Shown here: piece by piece, positions 2,193 to 21,875 of the stretch
How positions within the stretch are numbered: the first letter of the stretch is position 1
Layout: each line of letters starts with the position of its first letter
Source: Holophagae bacterium
GTDB lineage: Bacteria > Acidobacteriota > Thermoanaerobaculia > Thermoanaerobaculales > Thermoanaerobaculaceae
Length of the DNA stretch: 32,248 nucleotides
Reading direction: 5' to 3'
Assembly (NCBI GenBank): GCA_012516935.1
Contig: JAAYVZ010000190.1
Location: 1-32,248, forward strand
The notes under the pieces: model-generated
Database searches by the model: none
What the model was told of the DNA's origin: nothing
The model's input: only the letters and a program-made list of their open reading frames with translations
Position numbers and translations under genes: made by a program

Positions 2193-3551
2193 ATGCCGCG
2201 GGTGAGCGCCCCGACGACCGAGACCGCGTCACGTCCAGCCTCGTTTTGGCAGCGTTGGTGGGTGCACACCACCTACTTCGCCGAGGGGATGCCGTACATG
2301 GTGGTGCGCATCCTCTCCTCGGTCTATTTCACCGACATCGGCGCCAAGCTTCGCTACATCGGGTACCTCAACTTCCTGGGCATCCCGTGGAACCTCAAGT
2401 TCCTGTGGGCCCCTCTGGTCGACCTCGTGAGCACGCGACGGCGTTGGCAGGTGGTGATGCAGGCGCTGGTCGGGGGGCTCATGGCGGTGGTGGCGCTTTC
2501 GAACCTGGTCCTGCCGGGCTCGGCCACCCCGGATCGATGGCTCGGTATCGTGGCGCTCGTTTTCGTCATCATGGCGTTCTGTGCTGCCACCAACGACATC
2601 GCCATCGACGCCTACTACATGGAAGGGTTGCCCGACAAGCGCGAGCAGGCCGCCTGGGCCGGCCACCGGGTCCTGGCCTACCGGCTGGCGATGATCTTCG
2701 TTCGCACCGGCCTCGTGGCCTTGGCGGCGCTGGTGGCCGGGAAGGTCGGCACCCACGACCCGTACACGCCGTGGCTGGTCGCGTTCGGGGTCGGTGCAGC
2801 GGCGATGCTCGGGGTCTCCGCATTCCACGCGGCATGGCTCCCGCGTTTCGAGCACGAGCGTACCGGAGCCGCCGTGATAACCCCGCGGGCGGTATGGCGC
2901 GGGTTCGCGCGTGCCTTCGGCACCTACCTCCAGCAGCCACGGGTGGTTGCGGTGCTGACGTTCATTGTCCTTTACCGCGTGGGGGACGAGATCCTGTTCT
3001 CGATGACCACCCCGTTTCTGATGCGCGAGCTCGGCGTGTCCAAGGGGCAGTACGCCTGGCTCGCCGGTATCGTCGGCGCCGCCGGTACGATCCTCGGGAC
3101 CATGCTCGGCGGGCACTGGATCAAGGCCAGGGGGCTGGGCCGCTCGATCTGGCCGATCACGCTGCTGATGAACCTCAACATCTGGGTGTACGTGTGGCTG
3201 GCCTGGGCCAAACCGGATCCCGCGACGGCCCGAGGCCTTACCGCCATCGCTGTCATCCATGGCTACGAGCAGGTGGCTGCGGGGCTCGGCAGCGCGGTGT
3301 TGCTGGTTTTCCTGCTCCGCACCTGCAAGCCGGAGTTCAAGGCCGCACACTACGCCATCGGTTCAGCGATCATGTCGGTGTTCGCGACGTTCTTCGGCGG
3401 CTTCGGCGGACGCATGGTGGAGGCCATGGGCTGGGTCAACTTCTTCGTCCTCGCCTTCGTCGCCTCGCTGCCTGGAATGGCGTTGATCCCGTTGGTGCCG
3501 CTCCACGACGAGCCGGCGGCCGCGGTGGCGAAGGCCGAGGCACACGGTTGA
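2193..3551 (+). CDS. PAT-family (AmpG-like) MFS permease
   Basis: A 452-residue integral membrane protein with about 12 hydrophobic segments. The N-terminal motif YFAEGMPYMVV (about residues 28-38) matches the PAT (peptide/acetyl-CoA/drug transporter) branch of the MFS, which includes AmpG muropeptide permeases. A second-half segment beginning MRELGVSKGQYAWLAG also fits this branch. The ATG at 2193 is preferred because the transmembrane region begins about 20 residues later. The frame is open further upstream, to 2058, but that stretch overlaps the TPR gene. The gene starts 55 bp after the TPR gene. The substrate cannot be read from the sequence; muropeptide or another small solute is possible. 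No clear Shine-Dalgarno sequence precedes the start. Confidence 0.8.
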   Translation: MPRVSAPTTETASRPASFWQRWWVHTTYFAEGMPYMVVRILSSVYFTDIGAKLRYIGYLNFLGIPWNLKFLWAPLVDLVSTRRRWQVVMQALVGGLMAVVALSNLVLPGSATPDRWLGIVALVFVIMAFCAATNDIAIDAYYMEGLPDKREQAAWAGHRVLAYRLAMIFVRTGLVALAALVAGKVGTHDPYTPWLVAFGVGAAAMLGVSAFHAAWLPRFEHERTGAAVITPRAVWRGFARAFGTYLQQPRVVAVLTFIVLYRVGDEILFSMTTPFLMRELGVSKGQYAWLAGIVGAAGTILGTMLGGHWIKARGLGRSIWPITLLMNLNIWVYVWLAWAKPDPATARGLTAIAVIHGYEQVAAGLGSAVLLVFLLRTCKPEFKAAHYAIGSAIMSVFATFFGGFGGRMVEAMGWVNFFVLAFVASLPGMALIPLVPLHDEPAAAVAKAEAHG

Positions 3552-3855
3552 GGGAACCCCGTTCGTCCGGAGAACACAGCTTCAGGGCAACGTGCCGACG
3601 ATCGCGGTCCGAACCCTCGCCGGGCGGAGGTGCGACGGCGTCCTCGGCGCGTTCGGGCGCGGGAGATTGCGGGTCGGCGGCGCGGCCCCGACCTTCGGGG
3701 CAACCGTAGGCTCCCCGGCGCCGCTGCCTGTCCCCACCAGCGATCGCGGGGCGCACCCAGAACGCGTTTTCCGCTACTGGGTTCCGAGCATCCCGGCCTT
3801 TCGGGAGGGCGCAGGCGCCGCGGGTGTCGTCGAGCGTCCAGGATATGATCTGCGG
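3552..3855. other. 304-bp intergenic region upstream of mobA with possible RNA structure
   Basis: No convincing gene is visible. The mobA frame stays open through most of this stretch, but the conserved mobA start lies at its 3' end and the upstream translation shows no family motif. It holds two short inverted repeats: ACCCAG at 3755-3760 with CTGGGT at 3777-3782, and TCCCG at 3791-3795 with CGGGA at 3802-3806. A TATGAT box lies at 3844-3849. No T-tract terminator for the upstream permease is visible. Confidence 0.5.
3844..3849 (+). promoter_or_regulatory. Candidate -10 box for leaderless mobA transcript
   Basis: TATGAT matches the -10 consensus at five of six positions. A start of transcription seven bases later would coincide with the GTG start codon at 3856. 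No Shine-Dalgarno sequence precedes that GTG, which fits a leaderless message. No good -35 hexamer is present at 17 bp. Confidence 0.3.
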
Positions 3856-4437
3856 GTGGACGCAACCGCGGTCATCTTGGCGGGTGGCGGCAGCCGGCGT
3901 ATGGGCCGAGACAAGAGCATGCTCTCGATCGGCTCGCGGCCAATGATCGCGCACATTGCTGAGCAGCTCGCCTTCTTCCCGGAACGACTGGTTGGCGCCA
4001 ATGACCGGGAGAAGTACGCCTTTCTCGGCCTCGAGGTGGTGCCTGACGAGATGCCCGGAGTAGGGCCGCTGATGGGGATCATCTCCTGCGTTGCCCGTGC
4101 CTCGTACGAGCTCAGCTTCGTCACTGGCTGCGACATCCCGGTTCTGGACCGTGCCTTCATCCTCCGTCTGCTGGCCAACGCAACCGGCAACGACATCGTC
4201 ATGGCGCAGCTCCCCGATGGCCGGGTGGAGCCTTTGCTCGCGGTCTACCGCAAGACGGTCGTGCCGGTGGCACGCGAGCTCGTGGCCCGGAGTCGCCGCC
4301 GTATCGTGGAGCTCTTCGACCATCTCAAGGTTCATTTCGAGCCTGCCGAGACGCTCGATTGGTACCGCAACCTCAACACCATGCGCGAGTACCACCAGTT
4401 CATCCAGGGGCGGGGCGACCCCCACGACGAGCGATGA
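3856..4437 (+). CDS. mobA: Molybdenum cofactor guanylyltransferase MobA
   Basis: A 193-residue protein of the usual MobA length. It transfers GMP from GTP to molybdopterin to form the MGD cofactor carried by enzymes such as formate dehydrogenase. The nucleotide-binding signature LAGGGSRRMGRDK (residues 8-20) is intact. GPLMGI (about 70-75) and GCDIPVL with the metal-binding Asp93 follow, as expected in this fold. The GTG at 3856 is chosen because family members begin a few residues before the glycine-rich loop. The gene lies just upstream of the formate dehydrogenase operon and in the same direction, so it probably serves that enzyme. A CTP-using paralogue (MocA) is less likely given the motif pattern. 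Confidence 0.9.
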   Translation: MDATAVILAGGGSRRMGRDKSMLSIGSRPMIAHIAEQLAFFPERLVGANDREKYAFLGLEVVPDEMPGVGPLMGIISCVARASYELSFVTGCDIPVLDRAFILRLLANATGNDIVMAQLPDGRVEPLLAVYRKTVVPVARELVARSRRRIVELFDHLKVHFEPAETLDWYRNLNTMREYHQFIQGRGDPHDER

Positions 4438-4534
4438 CCGGTAGCACGTGTCAGCTCCCGTCGGCATCCGGTGTCCGGCTGCCGGTGCCAAAGCGACGAC
4501 GGCGCTGTCAGGGGCCCGCACAGTCTGGCGAGAA

Positions 4535-4564
4535 TTGACACCAGGCAAGTGTCTCCCCTATCGT
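4535..4564 (+). promoter_or_regulatory. Candidate sigma70 promoter of the formate dehydrogenase operon
   Basis: A perfect TTGACA (4535-4540) is followed after 18 bp by TATCGT (4559-4564). The predicted transcript starts near 4571, giving a leader of about 80 nt before the GTG at 4653. The -10 shares CTATCGT with those proposed for gpmA and ackA. Confidence 0.45.
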
Positions 4565-4569
4565 ACGAT

Positions 4570-4592
4570 TGCGTGTGCGTGGGCCACACGCA
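4570..4592 (+). promoter_or_regulatory. Perfect 8-bp inverted repeat at the fdh transcription start
   Basis: TGCGTGTG (4570-4577) and CACACGCA (4585-4592) are exact reverse complements separated by 7 bp. The repeat sits at the predicted +1 of the fdh transcript. It could be an operator for a dimeric regulator or a 5'-terminal hairpin of the mRNA; the sequence does not decide between these. Confidence 0.4.
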
Positions 4593-4652
4593 GTCAGTAC
4601 CGCTGCGGGCCATATCACGGCTGTGGATCTGCGAGAGTGAGGAGAGCTGATC

Positions 4653-7352
4653 GTGCGCCTGACCATCGATGGACGAAGCGTGGAGGCTGTCCCGGGGCAA
4701 ACCGTGCTGGATGCGGCGCGGGCCGCGGGCATTTATATCCCGGCACTCTGCTACCACCCCAAGACCGGCAAGGCCGGTCGCTGCCGTGCCTGTGTCGTCG
4801 AGGTCGAGGGCATGCGTGGGCTCAAGGAGTCATGCGCCCTGGAAGCGAAGGACGGGATGGTCGTCCACACCGCCACGCCGAAGGTGATGGAGACACGACG
4901 CCTGGTCGTCGACCTCCTGCTCGCTGAAGGCCACCACAACTGCATCTCGTGCCAAGCGAACTCGAGCTGCGAGCTGCAGGACATGGTCTATCACCTCGGT
5001 GTCGAGCGACCGTCGTTCCTCATCGAGTCGGAGCCGACGCCGTTGGATCTCTCCTCGCCCGGGATCGTGCGCGAGGCGGACAAGTGCATTCATTGCGGCC
5101 GCTGTGTGGAGGCGTGCCAAAACGGGGTGGTCAACGAAGTACTTGCGTTCGCCTACCGGGGCAGCCACGCCAAAGTGGTGTGCGACGACGACGTACCGAT
5201 GGGTGAGTCGACGTGCGTGCAGTGTGGCGAGTGCGTTCAGGTCTGCCCGGTCGGGGCGTTGGTGCTCAAGCAGCCACGAGATGTCAGGATTCGGCCGCAC
5301 GAGACGACAGCGACCAAGGTCACCTGTCCGTACTGCGGTGTGGGGTGCCAGATCGATCTGCACACGAAGGACAACCGATACGTCTTCGCCATGGCCCACG
5401 AGGGGCAGTGGGAGAAGCAACCCAACAAGGGGATGCTGTGCATCAAGGGGCGTTTCGGCCTCGACTTCGTGGACTCGCCGGACCGCTTGCGTACGCCGCT
5501 CATCCGCAGGGATGGCGAGCTCCAGGAAGCAACCTGGGACGAGGCGCTCGACCTCGTGGCGGAGCGGCTCAAGGCCACGAAGGAGCAGCACGGAGCCGAT
5601 TCCATCGGGTTTTTCACCTCGGCCAAGGTGACGAACGAGGAGAACTACGCCTTGGGAAGGTTCGCCCGCGCGGTGATCGGGACAAACAACATCGATCACT
5701 GTGCTCGACTTTGACATAGCTCCACCGTGGCCGGTCTGGCCGCGACGCTCGGTTCCGGTGCAATGACCAACAGCATGGAGGAGGTCCTCAAGGCGAAGGT
5801 CATTCTCGTCATCGGCTCCAACACGACCTGGAACCACCCCGTGTTCGGCTCGCTGATCAAGCAGGCGGTGAAGCACCACGGGGCCAAGCTCATCGTCTGC
5901 GATCCCCGCAGGATCGACCTCGTCAAGATCGCCGACGTCTGGCTCCAGCAGCGCAACGGCTCGGACGTGGCGCTGCTGTCAGGCCTGCAGCACATCATCC
6001 TCCGTGAGGGCTGGGAAGCGAAGCAGTACATCCAGGAACGCTGCGAGGGATACGACGAGTATCGTCAGGCGATCGAGTTCTACACCCCGGAGAAGGTCGA
6101 GGAGCTTACCGGGGTCAAGGCCGCCGACCTCGAGGCGGCGGCCCGGCTGTACGCGACCTCGGGGGTCGCCGCCCTCTACTACTGCATGGGGATCACCCAG
6201 CACAGTCATGGCGTGGACAACGTCAAGGCGTGCGTCAACCTCGCACTGATCACCGGCAACCTCGGTGTCGAGGGAGGAGGCGTCAACCCACTGCGCGGGC
6301 AGAACAACGTCCAGGGTGCCTGCGATATGGGTGGTCTCCCCAACGTGTTCACGGGTTACCAGCCGGTCACCAACGCGGCGGCGGTGGAGAAGTTCTCGAA
6401 ATACTGGAACGCCCCGCTGTCGGACAAGGTGGGGTTGACGCTCACCCAGATGATCCCGGCGTGCGGCGAGGCGATCCGGATGCTCTACATCATGGGCGAG
6501 AACCCGATGGTTTCGGACCCCAACCTGCACCACGTCGAAGAAAGCCTGCGCAAGCTCGACTTCCTCGTCGTCCAAGACATCTTCTTGACCGAGACTGCAC
6601 GGCTGGCAGACGTCGTCCTGCCGGGTGTCAGCTTCGCCGAGAAGCTCGGTACCATCAGCAACACCGAACGCCGCGTCCAGCTCTCGAACCCGGCCCTCAC
6701 TCCGCGGGGCAACGTGCGGCAGGATTATGAGATCATCGCCGATCTAGCGACCCGATTTGGACACACCTTCCCGCGCACGCCCGCAGGACTGTTCCAGGAA
6801 ATACGCGATCTCACGCCGTCGTACGCGGGCATCACCTACGACCGCATCCGTGACGTCGGAATCCAGTGGCCCTGTCCGACCACCGAGCATCCCGGCACCC
6901 GCTTCCTGCACGCCGGGAAGTTCGCGCGTGGTCTGGCGCTGCTGACGCCGATCGCGTACAAGCCTCCGGCCGAGGAGCCCGACGGGAAGTACGATCTCGT
7001 GCTCAGTACCGGCAGGATCTACGAGCACTTCCATACCGGTAGCATGACCCGGCGCTCGAGTATCCTCGACGCCGTCGTCAGGACGGGCCATGTCGAGATC
7101 CATCCCGAGCTGGCCTCGAAGCACGGTATCTCCACGGGCGATCAGGTGGCGGTGGCGACGCGGCGGGGGCGGATCGTGACGACAGCCCTCGTCACCGAGC
7201 GTGTCGCCAGAGGATCGATCTTCGTGCCTTTCCATTTTGCCGAGGCAGCGGCCAACACCCTCACCAACGACGCCCTGGACCCTGTCGCCAAAATTCCCGA
7301 GTTCAAGGTGTGCGCGGCCCGGCTGGAGCGCGTCTCGGGATGCGGGTGCTGA
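4653..7352 (+). CDS. fdhA: Selenocysteine-containing formate dehydrogenase, catalytic alpha subunit with NuoG-like N-terminus
   Basis: One gene of 900 codons (899 residues) with an in-frame TGA at 5712-5714 as Sec354; it should not be split there. It oxidises formate to CO2 at a bis-MGD Mo or W site. Domains in order are a 2Fe-2S ferredoxin fold (Cys33, 44, 47, 61), a His-Cys 4Fe-4S segment (His94/95, Cys97, 100, 106), and two 4Fe-4S sites (Cys145/148/151/155 and Cys188/191/194/198). The molybdopterin domain follows, with its own 4Fe-4S (Cys225/228/232/263), Sec354-His355 in HCARL-U-HSSTVAGL, and a C-terminal dinucleotide-binding domain. Length and layout resemble clostridial Sec NAD(P)-linked formate dehydrogenases. 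The GTG at 4653 has a GAGGAGAG ribosome site. It ends 15 bp before the NuoEF subunit. SelA, SelB, SelC and SelD must be encoded elsewhere. Confidence 0.95.
5712..5750 (+). promoter_or_regulatory. Bacterial SECIS element with the UGA(Sec) codon
   Basis: The TGA (5712-5714) is followed by a hairpin with stem CGTGGCC (5726-5732) and GGCCGCG (5738-5744). All seven bases pair, one as a U-G wobble. The loop is GGTCT (5733-5737). The GGU of the loop falls seven codons after the UGA, the same place and loop sequence as in Escherichia coli fdhF, where SelB binds. A weaker lower stem, AGC (5718-5720) with GCT (5747-5749), is possible. Confidence 0.9.
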
Positions 7353-7367
7353 GGGGACGGTGAGATC

Positions 7368-9107
7368 ATGCGAGAAGAGCTGAGCACGGCCATCGAGAGC
7401 ATCGCCGCCCGCTATCCAGAGCGTCGATCGGCCCTGCTGCCGGCGCTGCACCTCGTTCAGCAGCACAGCGGCGGATTTGTGGGCGCCGAGGATCTGGCCG
7501 CCATCGCCGAGGTGATCGGCGTGCCGGTTTCCGAGGCATACGGCGTTCAGACCTACTACACCATGTTCCAGCGGAAAAAGCTGGGCAAGTACCACCTGCA
7601 GGTGGACACCAACATCCCGGCGATGCTCGCTGGTGCCGAGGCGATCGTGAACCACCTGGAAAGAGCACTCGGGATCACGGTCGGCGAGACAACCGCGGAT
7701 GGGCTTTTTACCCTCTCCACGGTGGAGTGTCTCGCCTCCTGCGGCACCTGTCCGGTGATCCAGGTCAACGATCGCTACTACGAGAGCATGACTCCAGAGC
7801 GAACCGACGCCTTGCTGGCGAGCTTGCGGCAGGGAGTGATGCCCGATATGCCGGTGGTGGCCCATTTCCACTCGGAGTGCGGGGTGTTGATGGCGCGTCG
7901 AGGGATGCCCAATGCCACGGATATCGATGTCTACGTGGCGAGCGGTGGGTATAGGGCCATCGACCGGGCGCTCGAGATGGAGCCGGCCAAAGTCGTCGGC
8001 GAGGTCAAGGCCTCGAACCTACGTGGCCGAGGGGGTGCCGGTTTTCCCGCCGGTGTCAAATGGGGGTTCCTCGCCCGCGGTACCGGCAAACCGACCTACC
8101 TGATATGCAACGCTGACGAGGGTGAGCCCGGGACCTTCAAGGACCGGCAGATCATGCAGTTCGACCCGCATCTCCTCATCGAGGGGATGATCATTTCGGG
8201 GTACGCGGTCGGCGCAGCGCTCGGCTTCATTTATATCCGGGGTGAGTTCGCCTGGATCGCCGAGATCCTTGAGCGGGCAATCGCCCAGGCGCGTTCTCGT
8301 GGCTTGCTCGGCACCAATATCAAGGGCACGGGGTTCGACTTCGACATCATCGTGCATCTCGGGGCTGGCGCCTATGTGTGCGGCGAGGAGACGGCACTGA
8401 TCGAGTCGCTCGAAGGCAAGCGCGGCAACCCGCGCCTGAAGCCGCCGTTCCCGGCCGTAGTCGGGGTGTACGGCTGCCCGACGGTGGTCAATAACGTCGA
8501 GACGTTGGCTTCGGTCCCATTCATCATCGAGCACGGCGCCGGTCAGTTCATGCAGTTCGGTACCGCCAACAACTTCGGCCCCAAGATCTTCGGCATTTCC
8601 GGGCACGTCAAGCGCCCCGGCGCCTACGAGTTCCCGCTCGGGACGCCTCTTGCCAGATTGCTCGAGGCGGCCGGTGGTGTCGACGGCGAGCTGAAGGCGA
8701 TCATCGTCGGCGGGCTGTCCGTGCCGATCCTCACCGCTGAGGAGGCCAAGGGTCTCCTCATGGACTACGACTCCTGCCTCAAGTACGGGACGATGCTGGG
8801 CTCGGGCGGGATCATGGTCATGAACGAGACGACCAGCATTCCGAAGGTGGCGCTGCGTGCGATTCGTTTCTACGCGCACGAGTCGTGCGGGCAGTGCACG
8901 CCGTGCCGACAAGGCTCCCACACCGTCGCGATGCTGCTGGAGCGGATCGTGGCCGGGCGCGGCAGCCGCGTGGATATCGACCGGGTGTTGCAGTTGTGTG
9001 CGGCCATCAAGGGCACCACGCTGTGCCCGACCGGGGATGCCTTTGCCGTTCCGATCGAGGCCATGGTCACCAAGTTCCGAGCCGAGTTCGAAGCTCTGGT
9101 GGACTGA
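7368..9107 (+). CDS. Fused NuoE-NuoF-type NAD(H)/FMN subunit of formate dehydrogenase
   Basis: A 579-residue electron-transfer subunit expected to pass electrons between the fdhA clusters and NAD(P)+. Residues 1-150 are a NuoE-like thioredoxin fold. Residues about 180-579 are NuoF-like, with the FMN loop GRGGAGFPAG (220-229), NADEGEPGTFKDR, the NADH-site motif CGEETALIESLEGKRG (338-353), an SLBB region, and a 4Fe-4S motif (Cys507, 510, 513, 553). In the NuoE part the first two 2Fe-2S ligands of the usual C-x4-C are replaced by Asp80 and Ala85. Cys121 and Cys125 remain, with an extra Cys128. The canonical N1a cluster is therefore probably absent or altered. The ATG at 7368 follows a GAGGGGACGGTGAG ribosome site, and the start lies 15 bp after fdhA. 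Confidence 0.92.
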   Translation: MREELSTAIESIAARYPERRSALLPALHLVQQHSGGFVGAEDLAAIAEVIGVPVSEAYGVQTYYTMFQRKKLGKYHLQVDTNIPAMLAGAEAIVNHLERALGITVGETTADGLFTLSTVECLASCGTCPVIQVNDRYYESMTPERTDALLASLRQGVMPDMPVVAHFHSECGVLMARRGMPNATDIDVYVASGGYRAIDRALEMEPAKVVGEVKASNLRGRGGAGFPAGVKWGFLARGTGKPTYLICNADEGEPGTFKDRQIMQFDPHLLIEGMIISGYAVGAALGFIYIRGEFAWIAEILERAIAQARSRGLLGTNIKGTGFDFDIIVHLGAGAYVCGEETALIESLEGKRGNPRLKPPFPAVVGVYGCPTVVNNVETLASVPFIIEHGAGQFMQFGTANNFGPKIFGISGHVKRPGAYEFPLGTPLARLLEAAGGVDGELKAIIVGGLSVPILTAEEAKGLLMDYDSCLKYGTMLGSGGIMVMNETTSIPKVALRAIRFYAHESCGQCTPCRQGSHTVAMLLERIVAGRGSRVDIDRVLQLCAAIKGTTLCPTGDAFAVPIEAMVTKFRAEFEALVD

Positions 9108-9123
9108 GATAGGGGGCGTGATC

Positions 9124-9516
9124 ATGAGTGAGAAGACCAAGGTTCTGGTCATCGACGACGATCCGGACATCCACGCTTTCTGCACCCTGGTGCTCGAGGC
9201 GGCGGGGTATGCCGTGACGGTCGCAGCATCGGCGGCAGAGGGGAGAGCGGCGATGGCTGCGGCTCGTCCGGATCTGGTGATCCTCGACATCATGATGGAG
9301 CAGGCCGACGCCGGATTCGATGCCGCCCAGTGGTTCGCCCGCGAGTACCCGGGGTTGCCGGTGCTGATGCTGTCCTCGATCGCCGATGCGGCCGACTCCC
9401 TGTTCGACACCAGCACCCTCGGCGTCGCTGATCTGGTCAACAAGCCGATCTCCCCGGAGGAGCTGCTGGCCAAGGTGCAGCGCCTGCTGGCGCGGAGGGC
9501 GAGGGCGGAATACTGA
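9124..9516 (+). CDS. Receiver-only response regulator
   Basis: A 130-residue CheY-like receiver with no output domain. The acidic pocket is Asp11/12/13, the phosphoacceptor is Asp55 in VILDIMM, the switch residue is Ser84/85, and the conserved lysine is Lys107 in NKPIS. All residues for phosphorylation are present. It begins 16 bp after the NuoEF-like gene behind a GGGGGCG ribosome site, so it is co-transcribed with formate dehydrogenase. No histidine kinase is seen in the window. Single-domain receivers signal by protein contact; a role in tuning or sensing the enzyme is inferred only from position. Confidence 0.85.
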   Translation: MSEKTKVLVIDDDPDIHAFCTLVLEAAGYAVTVAASAAEGRAAMAAARPDLVILDIMMEQADAGFDAAQWFAREYPGLPVLMLSSIADAADSLFDTSTLGVADLVNKPISPEELLAKVQRLLARRARAEY

Positions 9517-9598
9517 CAGGGCACGTCCGCCTTGGGATCGAGGCAACCGGGTGGGTTGCCTGCAAGGCGTGGACGGCACAGGAATGGACGGTGAGGGC

Positions 9599-10099
9599 AT
9601 GAGCGCAATCGATGCGGCAAAGGTCCTGAGCTATGCGCTCGAGCGTGAGCGCGAAGGTTTCGCCTTCTTCTCGAGTCACGCCGAAAGGGCGCAGCATGCT
9701 GCGGTGGTGGGTATTTTCCGACGCCTGGCCGAGGAGGAGCAAGGGCACATCCGATTCATCGAGCAGCTCATCGCGACCCAAGCCGGTCAGTCGCCTTCAA
9801 CTGCCGAGCCGATGGCCGGAGTCCACGAAAGCAGCTTCTTCACCGCGCGTGCTATCTCGGAGATGATCGAGCAGACGACCACCGAAGCGATGGTCCCCGA
9901 CTTGCCCGTGCTGCGCATGGCGTTTCTCATCGAGCGCGACCTCGCCGAGTTCTACGATTCGATGGCGGCTCGGGCTGAGGGTGGGACGCGGCAGGCCCTG
10001 CAACGGCTCGCTGACTGGGAGCGTGAGCACGAGCGTCTGTTCAGGACCATCCACGACCGTGTGTTCGCAGAGTACTCGGGCATGCCCTGGGGTGGCTGA
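9599..10099 (+). CDS. Ferritin-like (rubrerythrin-type) diiron protein
   Basis: A 166-residue, mainly helical protein with a four-helix-bundle diiron pattern. There is a glutamate in helix 1 (EREREG, residues 15-20), E-x-x-H at Glu47/His50, a glutamate in helix 3 (Glu112 in IERDLAEFY), and E-x-x-H at Glu141/His144. It lacks the C-terminal rubredoxin domain of classical rubrerythrin. It lies 82 bp after the receiver gene and is the last gene of the operon. The ATG at 9599 is chosen because GGTGAG precedes it; an in-frame ATG 15 bp upstream is possible. Removal of peroxide or oxygen around the oxygen-sensitive selenoenzyme is a reasonable inference, not shown by the sequence. Confidence 0.8.
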   Translation: MSAIDAAKVLSYALEREREGFAFFSSHAERAQHAAVVGIFRRLAEEEQGHIRFIEQLIATQAGQSPSTAEPMAGVHESSFFTARAISEMIEQTTTEAMVPDLPVLRMAFLIERDLAEFYDSMAARAEGGTRQALQRLADWEREHERLFRTIHDRVFAEYSGMPWGG

Positions 10100-10158
10100 C
10101 GGCGCCGAGGGTATCCGGCCGGCAGCAGGCGAGCCGTCCACCGTGTCAGACACGAAAA

Positions 10159-10180
10159 GGGGGCAACCGTGGTTGCCCCC
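10159..10180 (-). terminator. Rho-independent terminator of the OFA transporter gene
   Basis: GGGGGCAAC and GTTGCCCCC form a perfect 9-bp GC-rich stem with a four-base loop. Read on the - strand it is followed by CTTTTCG and lies 23 bp after the transporter stop. On the + strand no T tract follows, so it mainly serves the - strand gene, though it may also slow transcription from the fdh operon. Confidence 0.75.
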
Positions 10181-10203
10181 TGGGGTGTACTTGAGGCGGT
10201 GAG

Positions 10204-11589
10204 CTACGCGCTGGCCTTCTTTTCGAACGGCAGGTTGCTGAGGGCGAACGTGATCAGAAAGCCTACGCTGACGAAAGCCAGGCCGGCCAGGAAGCTGTAG
10301 TAGCCAGCCTGGGTGGGCCAGCGGTCCTTGATGATGCCGACCATCTGTGGGCCGACCACGCCGGCCGCGGACCACGCCGTCAGGATCGTTCCGTAGACCA
10401 CCGGCATGAGCTTGGCGCCGAACACATCCAACACGAACGACGGCATGGTGCCGAAGCCGCCGCCGTAGCACAGCAGGATGTAACAGAACAGGGCGGCGAA
10501 GAGCCATGGGCTCTTGTTCCAGGCGAGGACGGCGAACACCACGATTTGGGTGCCGAGCATGATCGAGAACGTCCGCGACCGCCCGATCTTGTCCGAGATT
10601 CCGCCCCAGAAGAACCGGCCGATACCGTTGAACAGGGAGGTTACGCCGATGAGCGTCGCACCCATGGAGGCGAGTGCCGCTGCGGTCAGCGTGGGATCGA
10701 CCTTGTGCCACAGATCCTGGAACAGCGGTGACTGGAAGCCGATGATGGCAATACCCGCCGTGATGTTGCAGAAAAAGACGATCCACATCAAGAAGAAGCG
10801 GCCGGACAGGAGGCAGTCCTTGGCGGTGAGCGCGTCGAATGCGGCGGTCTTGGCGTTAGCCGCCACAACCGGCGGCGTCCAACCGGCCGGCACGTAACCG
10901 GCGGGCGGGTTCTTCAAGAACCAGCCGACCGGTACGGTCAGGACCAGGAAGATGACGCCGAGGCCTGCGAACAGCTTGGTGAGGATCCCCTGCAGCGCCT
11001 CAGGGTTTTGCAGCACGAGGGCGCCATCGACGTTGGCGTACACCAGCTCGACGCCGGTCTTGAAGTAGTTGAAGAGCATCGGCGCGAAGACCTTGGACAT
11101 CACCAGCGCGCCGAGACCGAACCCCATGACGACCAGGCCGGTCGCGAAGCCTTTCTTGTCGGGGAACCACTTGGCGACGGTGGCCACCGGGGTCACGTAC
11201 CCAAGTCCGAGACCGCAGCCACCGACCACACCGTAGCCCAGGAAGAGCATGAGCGGCGACTTCATGGACAAGGCCAGCGCCCCGAGAAGGTAGCCGATGC
11301 CAAAGAGCGTGCCACCGACCATGGCTAGCTTGGTGGGGCCGATCTTCGCCAGGTTCATGCCGCCCCAAGCGGCCGCCAGTCCGAGGAAGCAGATCGCCAG
11401 GCAAAACGCCCACGCGGTCATGCTGTTGGACCACCCGAAAGCGTCACCCAGTGGCTTCTGGAAGTAGGACCACGCATATGCGGTCCCGAGGAAAAGCTGC
11501 AGCAAAGTGCCCATGATGGCGATCAGCCATCGGTTCGTGGTTTTTGGCTCGCTGCCTGGAGCTGTCTTCGTAGTGTCGGTTGCAGTCAT
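10204..11589 (-). CDS. OFA-family MFS transporter (oxalate/formate antiporter type)
   Basis: A 461-residue, 12-segment membrane protein. The first helix motif NRWLIAIMGTLLQLFLGTAYAW and the segment with GLGYVTPVATVAKWFPDKKG are characteristic of the OFA (oxalate:formate antiporter) family of the MFS. The next motif, GFATGLVVMGFGLGALV, also fits. The ATG at 11589 follows a strong GAGAGAAGGGAG ribosome site. The gene stands next to the formate dehydrogenase operon, tail to tail, and has its own promoter and terminator. Formate uptake is therefore the likely job, but OFA members also carry oxalate and other monocarboxylates and the substrate is not proven. Confidence 0.85.
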   Translation of the reverse strand: MTATDTTKTAPGSEPKTTNRWLIAIMGTLLQLFLGTAYAWSYFQKPLGDAFGWSNSMTAWAFCLAICFLGLAAAWGGMNLAKIGPTKLAMVGGTLFGIGYLLGALALSMKSPLMLFLGYGVVGGCGLGLGYVTPVATVAKWFPDKKGFATGLVVMGFGLGALVMSKVFAPMLFNYFKTGVELVYANVDGALVLQNPEALQGILTKLFAGLGVIFLVLTVPVGWFLKNPPAGYVPAGWTPPVVAANAKTAAFDALTAKDCLLSGRFFLMWIVFFCNITAGIAIIGFQSPLFQDLWHKVDPTLTAAALASMGATLIGVTSLFNGIGRFFWGGISDKIGRSRTFSIMLGTQIVVFAVLAWNKSPWLFAALFCYILLCYGGGFGTMPSFVLDVFGAKLMPVVYGTILTAWSAAGVVGPQMVGIIKDRWPTQAGYYSFLAGLAFVSVGFLITFALSNLPFEKKASA

Positions 11590-11769
11590 GGTTCTCCCTT
11601 CTCTCCTCCGATGGTATCCGTGTCGAACTCGAACCCTGCCTCCCATTCCTCATGGCGAGGGAATCAGGCTCCCGGCAACGGGACCGGGTGTGATCGACCG
11701 CACTCCACAGTGGCTAGGCGAACCCAGATGGGCGTGGGCGGAGTGCGATTACCCCTTTCTCGCAGCGAG
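11590..11769 (-). promoter_or_regulatory. Long structured 5' leader of the OFA transporter
   Basis: About 170-180 nt separate the predicted transcription start from the ATG. The leader contains an exact 8-bp inverted repeat, CGCACTCC (11699-11706) with GGAGTGCG (11740-11747), enclosing a smaller CCCA/TGGG hairpin. A palindrome TCTCG-CAG-CGAGA (11758-11770) sits on the predicted +1. It matches no riboswitch class that I recognise. Confidence 0.35.
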
Positions 11770-11815: not shown

Positions 11816-12673
11816 TCACCGCACCCGCCAGGCGGCCGAGTAGACCGTCATCGAGCGGCGTCTGACCCGTCCGCACAAGGCAATCTGGCAGCTCTCGGCC
11901 ATCATCGCTGCTTCGTGGGTTGCGGCCGCCGGTGAGATCACGAGCGGTATGCCGACCCTCGCCACCTTCACGACCATGTCGCGCGCGAACCGACCCGAGC
12001 AGAGCAGCACGAGGTCGGAGAAGCACGCGCCAGCACAGAACGCCTGCCCGATGGCCTTATCGACCGCACTGTGGCGCCCGAGGTCCTCGGCGAAATAGAG
12101 GTATCGAGCTCCGTCGCTCAGCGCCGCGGAGTGCACACACTGTGTCTGCTGGTACAGCCCGGGTCGGGTATCGAACTGGTGCCCGAGCTTCATGATCCGC
12201 GCCGCCTCCATGGTCAGCCGGCTGAGGTGCGCCGTGCCAATGGATGTCGAGAGATCCTCCTGGATGAACGGCCGTCCAGGGCCGTTTCGGCGCTGAGCGG
12301 CGGGCGGAGCAGCGGCGCCGAGCTGGCTTGGGCCCCGGTCAAACGGAGCACCGCCTTCGCTGCACTCGCCGAGCGTTTCCACGCGGCCGGCTGGGAGCTC
12401 AGCGGTCACCTCGACCGTCATCGAGTCGGCGTCGACGACGACCTGATGCAGCTCGGCACGGTCACAGACGATTCCAGCGGTCACCAAGAAGCCTACCGCC
12501 AGCTCTGAGAGCCCGTCAGGCATGCACTGTATCCGGGTGATGAGCGCGCCGTTGAGGTGGATGGCCACGGTTGCTTCACGCACGAGGGTGCTTTCACGAG
12601 CCGCAGCCCCGTGCTCGTCGTAGGTCAGAAGCGATACTTGCGCGACACGATGCAGCACGCGGTGGTCTCCCAC
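11816..12673 (-). CDS. fdhD: FdhD, sulfurtransferase for formate dehydrogenase cofactor
   Basis: A 285-residue protein of FdhD length. FdhD moves sulfur from a cysteine desulfurase to the bis-MGD cofactor, which activates formate dehydrogenase. Family motifs seen are the N-terminal TVAIHLNGALITRIQCMPD region, GFLVTAGI, CVHSAAL (179-185), the EDLGRHSAVDKAIG block (196-209), CSGRFARDMV and GIPLVISPAAAT. At the place of the usual CGxC loop it has GECSEGG, keeping only Cys104. The GTG at 12673 is used because it gives the expected N-terminus; no strong ribosome site is seen. It lies upstream of the OFA transporter on the same strand. Its client is almost certainly the Sec enzyme encoded nearby. 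Confidence 0.92.
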   Translation of the reverse strand: MGDHRVLHRVAQVSLLTYDEHGAAARESTLVREATVAIHLNGALITRIQCMPDGLSELAVGFLVTAGIVCDRAELHQVVVDADSMTVEVTAELPAGRVETLGECSEGGAPFDRGPSQLGAAAPPAAQRRNGPGRPFIQEDLSTSIGTAHLSRLTMEAARIMKLGHQFDTRPGLYQQTQCVHSAALSDGARYLYFAEDLGRHSAVDKAIGQAFCAGACFSDLVLLCSGRFARDMVVKVARVGIPLVISPAAATHEAAMMAESCQIALCGRVRRRSMTVYSAAWRVR

Positions 12674-21698: not shown

Positions 21699-21774
21699 GG
21701 GTCGTTAGCTCAGCCGGCAGAGCAGCGGGCTTTTAACCCGAAGGTCGTGGGTTCGATCCCCACACGACCCACCA
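21699..21774 (+). tRNA. tRNA-Lys(TTT)
   Basis: A complete 76-nt cloverleaf with encoded CCA. The acceptor arms are GGGTCGT and ACGACCC, the anticodon loop is CTTTTAA with TTT at 21732-21734, and the T loop is GTTCGAT. It reads AAA and AAG lysine codons. Confidence 0.97.
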
Positions 21775-21800
21775 GTGCTAAACTTTCCCGGCTGCGGAGT

Positions 21801-21875
21801 GGCCCTGTCGTCTAACGGTCAGGACACCGGTCTTTCAAGCCGGCAGCACGGGTTCGACTCCCGTCAGGGCCGCCA
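21801..21875 (+). tRNA. tRNA-Glu(TTC)
   Basis: A complete 75-nt cloverleaf with encoded CCA, 26 nt after tRNA-Lys. The acceptor arms are GGCCCTG and CAGGGCC, the anticodon loop is CTTTCAA with TTC at 21834-21836, and the T loop is TTCGACT. A diverged copy lies at 24141-24214. Confidence 0.97.

Follow-up and report, generated by a model that had tools for sequence, protein, structure and literature searches.

Why should a receiver-only protein (REC) and a ferritin-like diiron protein (FER) be encoded within a formate dehydrogenase (FDH) locus? The ways in which bacteria switch the direction of reversible H2/formate/NAD enzymes and shield them from oxygen are relevant to syntrophy, CO2 fixation, and enzyme engineering. 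We analyzed a stretch of 32,248 nucleotides (the window) corresponding to contig C130 of a 3.7-Mb genome that is 98% complete. Judged from sequence comparisons, REC and FER are probably dedicated helpers of oxygen-sensitive formate and hydrogen enzymes.

The plus-strand unit comprises FdhA, a fused NuoE-NuoF subunit (NuoEF), REC, and FER, in that order, with MobA upstream (Table 1). FdhA contains an in-frame TGA at codon 354, the selenocysteine (Sec) position, and scores 821 bits against the NCBIfam Fdh-alpha model (cut-off, 666). NAD-linked Mo/W FDHs are marked by an FdhA with Sec or Cys plus a NuoE/NuoF diaphorase; both are present here, and the window encodes an NAD-linked selenocysteine FDH consisting of FdhA and the fused NuoEF. 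The FDH subunits are similar to HydABC, a similarity that by itself does not show electron bifurcation.

The REC gene starts 16 bp behind the NuoEF stop codon (9107 to 9124), as the earlier note on this DNA had reported, and this gap contains a ribosome-site-like AGGGGG. The gap between REC and FER is 67 bp (ATG 9584) or 82 bp (ATG 9599); in the window, tight spacing joins REC to NuoEF only, not to FER. Apart from the site upstream of FdhA, a consensus scan detected no plus-strand promoter-like site across 3300-10099. The co-expression that had been thought likely is favored by the spacing, by the lack of an internal promoter-like site, and by a NuoEF/REC overlap in another genome (G648, see below). 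We take the MFS transporter encoded behind FER to be an oxalate/formate-antiporter-like transporter (OFA). Elsewhere in the window, a tandem pair of tRNA genes (21699-21872) gave the only matches in an Rfam scan.

Table 1. Features of the FDH locus in the window
Feature	Position	Strand	Remarks
MobA-like nucleotidyltransferase (Mo cofactor)	3592..4437	+	Recurs in same neighborhood in other genomes
Promoter-like site TTGACA-18-TATCGT, upstream of FdhA	4535..4564	+	Consensus scan; not proof of function
FdhA, catalytic subunit with N-terminal NuoG/HydA-like Fe-S domains	4653..7352	+	Sec at TGA 5712-5714
Fused NuoE-NuoF diaphorase subunit, 579 aa	7368..9107	+	Pfam 2Fe-2S_thioredx, Complex1_51K, SLBB, NADH_4Fe-4S
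REC, 130 aa, predicted phospho-acceptor D55, subfamily motif DIMMEQADAGF	9124..9516	+	Pfam and family alignment
FER, rubrerythrin-family without rubredoxin domain, diiron, 166 aa	9599..10099	+	Start conserved in congener; 171 aa with ATG 9584
Strong terminator-like hairpin between convergent FER and OFA genes	10158..10181	-	Sequence scan
OFA (presumed), MFS transporter resembling oxalate/formate antiporters	10204..11646	-	Recurs beside same genes in other genomes
FdhD, FDH sulfurtransferase	11816..12673	-	Pfam

REC matches Pfam Response_reg alone (E 2e-21, residues 7-119), with no output domain and no second domain detected by Pfam. The acidic pair D11/D12, the phospho-acceptor position D55, and K107-P108 are invariant across 20 aligned family members, and S84 occupies the Thr/Ser position, which bears out the earlier description of a receiver with complete phosphorylation residues and no output domain. 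The AlphaFold model (pLDDT 80) is a canonical (beta-alpha)5 receiver with a short alpha4. By the features tested, REC classifies as a single-domain response regulator, and it would be phosphorylated as such. The lone receiver domain, the full phosphorylation residue set, and the (beta-alpha)5 model are shared with CheY/DivK/Spo0F-type single-domain regulators, whereas the D-x-M-M-E-x4-G motif with no Pro after the phospho-acceptor, the altered beta4-beta5 segment that characterizes the REC subfamily in the alignment, and the systematic position beside FDH/hydrogenase genes are not. More specifically, the subfamily motif (D-x-M-M-[E/D]-x4-G-[F/I/L]) exceeds the usual D-x-M-M-P-x-x-D-G by one residue. 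REC carries this motif and has an FDH/hydrogenase/NuoEF gene within 6.5 kb, the two features that mark the subfamily.

Two known families were considered and rejected for REC. Against the DVU0259/DivK NCBIfam family (NF045717) it scores 53.7 bits, with a curated cut-off of 160. FixT is an Fe-S-binding single-domain receiver with a 4-Cys motif; its target is the oxygen-sensor kinase FixL, which it inhibits (PMC7078487). FixT shares with REC the single-domain architecture and a redox/oxygen context, but REC lacks the four-cysteine motif (its one Cys is C20) and no kinase adjoins the FDH. Neither REC nor FER reached the cut-off of any NCBIfam family. In the open-licence literature, we found no description of an FDH/hydrogenase-linked receiver family or of a REC-FER gene pair, an absence that is weak evidence; the family libraries gave no description of the REC family either.

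FER ends at 10099 and begins at ATG 9584 (171 aa) or, more likely, at ATG 9599 (166 aa), since the latter start is kept in a congener. It matches Pfam Rubrerythrin (PF02915; E 1e-13, 52 bits vs. a cut-off of 22.8), and the full E/ExxH sets noticed earlier are indeed there: E22 with E52-x-x-H55 and E117 with E146-x-x-H149 (numbering from 9584) make up both diiron half-sets, and these ligands are conserved down to 22-27% identity. The model is a five-helix ferritin-like bundle (pLDDT 84) for which Foldseek gave no PDB match at E<0.001; the top structural neighbors, at weak E-values, were thioferritin/Dps-like and YciF proteins. FER is not a classical rubrerythrin, having neither the rubredoxin Fe(Cys)4 domain nor any Cys. 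With the rubredoxin-less rubrerythrin-family proteins 1vjx (TM1526) and 2fzf, to which its sequence matches are weak (E 0.0007-0.001), it shares the ferritin-like diiron character, but it has no close relative of known function, and FDH-linked FERs occur in more than one lineage. The encapsulin cargo family (EncFtn/EncB) gave no match for the window FER and weak matches for some relatives.

The earlier note named the lack of a conserved neighborhood as a ground for refuting its idea. That ground is excluded: the gene set is found again in the congener, in further families of the Acidobacteriota, and in one genome from beyond this phylum. In the congener (Thermoanaerobaculaceae bacterium Prado014, Acidobacteriota), the order MobA-FdhA-NuoEF-REC-FER-OFA-FdhD is intact, with 85% identity for REC and 79% for FER. 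The dN/dS values between window and congener are 0.15 for REC, 0.17 for FER, 0.13 for NuoEF, and 0.12 for both FdhA and OFA; REC and FER are under purifying selection like their neighbors. The FER gene of the congener MAG has a short deletion and a frameshift near helix A relative to the window (L050, 8560-8660), which is either real decay to a pseudogene or an assembly fault.

Using FdhA to search 297 Acidobacteriota genomes, we obtained 19 full-length close loci (47-100% identity) and 10 remote FDHs (41-45%), and read the loci with receiver and ferritin profiles. The REC subfamily is present at 6 of the 19 close loci (G000, G087, G099, G122, G124, and G282) and FER at 11 (G000, G087, G099, G122, G091, G101, G136, G138, G171, G297, and G324); 4 loci have both genes and 13 have either. 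Neither gene was found at any of the 10 remote FDHs (Fisher test, close vs. remote: either gene, p 0.0004; FER, p 0.003; REC alone, p 0.07). The arrangement varies, with REC-NuoEF-FdhA-FER-FdhD in G122 and OFA-REC-FdhA-NuoE-NuoF plus FER in G087 and G099, and FER lies on the opposite strand in G087, G099, G136, G324, and G091. REC is missing at 13 of the 19 close loci, some of them at contig ends, and many of the genomes are fragmented MAGs in which a gene absence can be a contig end. The proposal of a single receiver-ferritin system does not hold at these loci: 7 of the 19 have FER without REC and 2 have REC without FER. Since each occurs alone, they are two accessories and not one system.

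Outside the Acidobacteriota, we used NuoEF as the anchor in 318 genomes of the class of G490, which includes MAGs deposited as Deltaproteobacteria and Proteobacteria, and found a close NuoEF in 3 of them. In G490, the order is NuoEF (67% identity)-REC (51%)-OFA, with MobA, FdhD, and FdhA also present and the REC ATG 5 bp past the NuoEF stop. G648 has NuoEF (75%)-REC (61%)-OFA on a contig that also carries FdhD and FdhA-FER-MobA, and here the stop codon of NuoEF and the start codon of REC share an ATGA. G749 has a NuoEF 76% identical to that of the window and no receiver. Most likely, then, the gene set passed from one phylum to another with REC attached to NuoEF, and REC is dispensable in some lineages; given its absence from 13 close FDH loci and from G749, REC is not essential to the enzyme. 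In G749, genes that we name SelB- and SelA-like by inspection of their sequences lie directly upstream of NuoEF (L318, 2517-5929).

The FERs beside FDHs do not form one clade. Most of them are interrelated (G122, G138, G171, G290, G101, and G297, and, by eye, G648), and the window FER stands apart as an outlier. It was rejected as an orthologue of the G122 FER, with which it shares 27% identity only and no common clade, a result that points to repeated recruitment or strong divergence. A genome-wide pattern scan for FER orthologues turned up nothing but the congener and remote ferritin-like proteins. Other FERs belong to 2-oxoacid:ferredoxin oxidoreductase-like clusters, in some of which NuoEF is present; the pairing of FER-type proteins with oxygen-sensitive oxidoreductases thus extends beyond FDH.

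REC had been taken as tied to FDH, an assumption that proved too narrow: its subfamily adjoins hydrogenases, both [FeFe] and [NiFe], more frequently than FDH. Sequence similarity yielded 101 distinct members, and for 80 of them an FDH, [FeFe], [NiFe], or NuoEF gene is no more than 6.5 kb away. REC has diversified together with the enzyme type, as the tree shows 25 changes of context label vs. a shuffled mean of 58.9 (0 of 200 shuffles as low), a statistic that is inflated by related genomes and uses labels from tblastn to reference proteins of a few loci. The FDH-linked RECs of the window genus and G490, of G122, G087, and G099, of G124, and of G282 are placed separately in this tree, and the REC-FDH association therefore arose more than once. 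The phylum to which G335 belongs has 29 members, of which 22 have a partner at ≤1.5 kb (NuoE-NuoF immediately after the receiver in 11 cases, the sensor kinase in 8, and a [NiFe] hydrogenase in 3), and 10 full loci there have REC directly before NuoE-NuoF-HydA. Across four genomes of other groups, 4 motif-bearing receivers lie beside hydrogenase genes, and 4 lower-scoring receivers with the ordinary motif do not. Names such as HydS-like, Hox, and group-4 hydrogenase were given to clusters by similarity and are in part our presumption.

The own genome of the window shows the same pattern. It encodes 42 receivers; the 3 that belong to the subfamily are the very ones adjoining the FDH, the [FeFe] hydrogenase, and the complex-I/group-4-hydrogenase-like cluster, and only 2 of the 39 other receivers are on those redox-cluster contigs (p 0.0009). 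The best REC paralogues are on C195, in the [FeFe] hydrogenase cluster, and on C78, near the complex-I/group-4-hydrogenase-like cluster. The C195 cluster (L017, 3953-11731, minus strand) has in a row NuoE- and NuoF-like genes, HydA, and a hydrogenase-like sensor kinase, and next to these a stand-alone receiver and a receiver-kinase. In such [FeFe] clusters, which we presume to be HydS-like (group C), REC follows a kinase with Fe_hyd_lg_C, FeS, HisKA, and HATPase domains. The C195 cluster and the window FDH locus share the genome, NuoE/NuoF-type subunits, and a receiver of the same subfamily, but in the former the catalytic subunit is a hydrogenase and the receiver stands beside a kinase, and the latter has no kinase. 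Six genomes that carry REC at an FDH have the hydrogenase-like kinase, but four in which REC accompanies FDH or NuoEF genes (G124, G282, G018, and G020) lack it; the kinase was consequently rejected as a universal REC partner.

Further arrangements were seen around subfamily members. In L311 (9986-13231), FdhA is followed by a 1082-aa NuoF + NfnB/GltD-like flavoprotein fusion (Complex1_51K, NADH_4Fe-4S, Fer4_20, and Pyr_redox_2) and then by a second subfamily receiver. An FdhA-like gene also occurs in complex-I/group-4-hydrogenase-like clusters (L190, L192, L194, L195, L197, and L202); these are arranged alike and host two different subfamily receivers at a distance of 10-11 kb, one of them with D-M-M-M-E-D-x-D-[AS]-G. 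Rex-like redox repressor genes adjoin hydrogenase/receiver clusters in L313 (6133-6480), L314 (1353-1652), and L259 (3030-3383).

How might the two accessories work? A redox- or H2-responsive histidine kinase would phosphorylate REC at D55; the candidate in the own genome is the hydrogenase-like sensor kinase of the C195 cluster. Phosphorylated REC may then bind the diaphorase end, NuoEF, and either raise or lower electron flow between formate and NAD, while FER would remove peroxide or traces of O2 close to the Sec/Mo enzyme. The action on NuoEF is suggested by the tight NuoEF-REC pairing and overlap, the kinase by the position of REC behind Fe_hyd_lg_C-type kinases, and scavenging by the fold and ligands of FER. 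We hold this account as a whole, an FDH with two separately recruited accessories, one switching its diaphorase end and one scavenging peroxide/O2, to be the best available, tentative and quite possible. Given the four genomes without the hydrogenase-like kinase, either another kinase serves there or the kinase idea is wrong, and since REC members also sit by complex-I/group-4-hydrogenase-like clusters with no NuoEF nearby, NuoEF may not be the target. More doubtful, and still conceivable, is the general case in which these phylum-spanning stand-alone receivers would be a built-in phosphorylation switch of NAD-linked FDHs and hydrogenases, gating diaphorase electron flow on the signal of a redox- or H2-sensing kinase. 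If true, two-component control would act directly on the activity of a redox enzyme rather than on transcription. Because the receiver family is tied to these enzymes in distant bacteria, the effect of phosphorylated REC on NuoEF-type complexes is directly testable, and the recurrent ferritin-like pairing makes local peroxide defense of the Sec/Mo enzyme testable as well.

It is somewhat unlikely that REC acts on signaling instead of the enzyme, as a phosphate sink, feedback inhibitor, or relay that serves the hydrogenase-like sensor kinase or the receiver-kinase nearby and tunes redox-operon transcription. The [FeFe] clusters, where REC is flanked by the hydrogenase-like kinase on one side and a receiver-kinase protein on the other, would fit such a role, as would the nearby Rex-like genes and the precedent of FixT inhibiting FixL (PMC7078487); yet no kinase is adjacent in the FDH loci and most REC-NuoE-NuoF-HydA loci, where the tight partner is NuoEF or NuoE, four REC-bearing genomes lack the hydrogenase-like kinase, and REC lineages track enzyme type. 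Distinctly improbable, in our view, is that REC and FER ride along in loose, horizontally moved redox islands of anaerobes and have no function for the enzyme. Gene spacing down to overlap, independent repetition of the association, its absence from all 10 remote FDHs, and purifying selection all argue against this, even though rubrerythrin-family genes are many in these genomes, the FERs beside FDHs are polyphyletic, and the FDH has a scattered distribution (3 of 318 genomes of one class have a close NuoEF).

For FER, the preferred role in scavenging competes with iron storage or supply for Fe-S cluster assembly of the enzyme, which we consider unlikely. The Pfam family and ligand pattern are rubrerythrin-like and a monomer model cannot show a cage, while the ferritin-like fold and the thioferritin/Dps-like and YciF neighbors (weak E-values) are consistent with storage.

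In two loci (L163, 2770-6853; L164, 2944-7107), 2-oxoacid:ferredoxin oxidoreductase-like genes precede NuoE, NuoF, an N-terminal part that is HydA/NuoG-like, and a ferritin-like gene. Such a set possibly encodes an oxoacid oxidoreductase that is NAD-linked and has a ferritin-like partner of its own.
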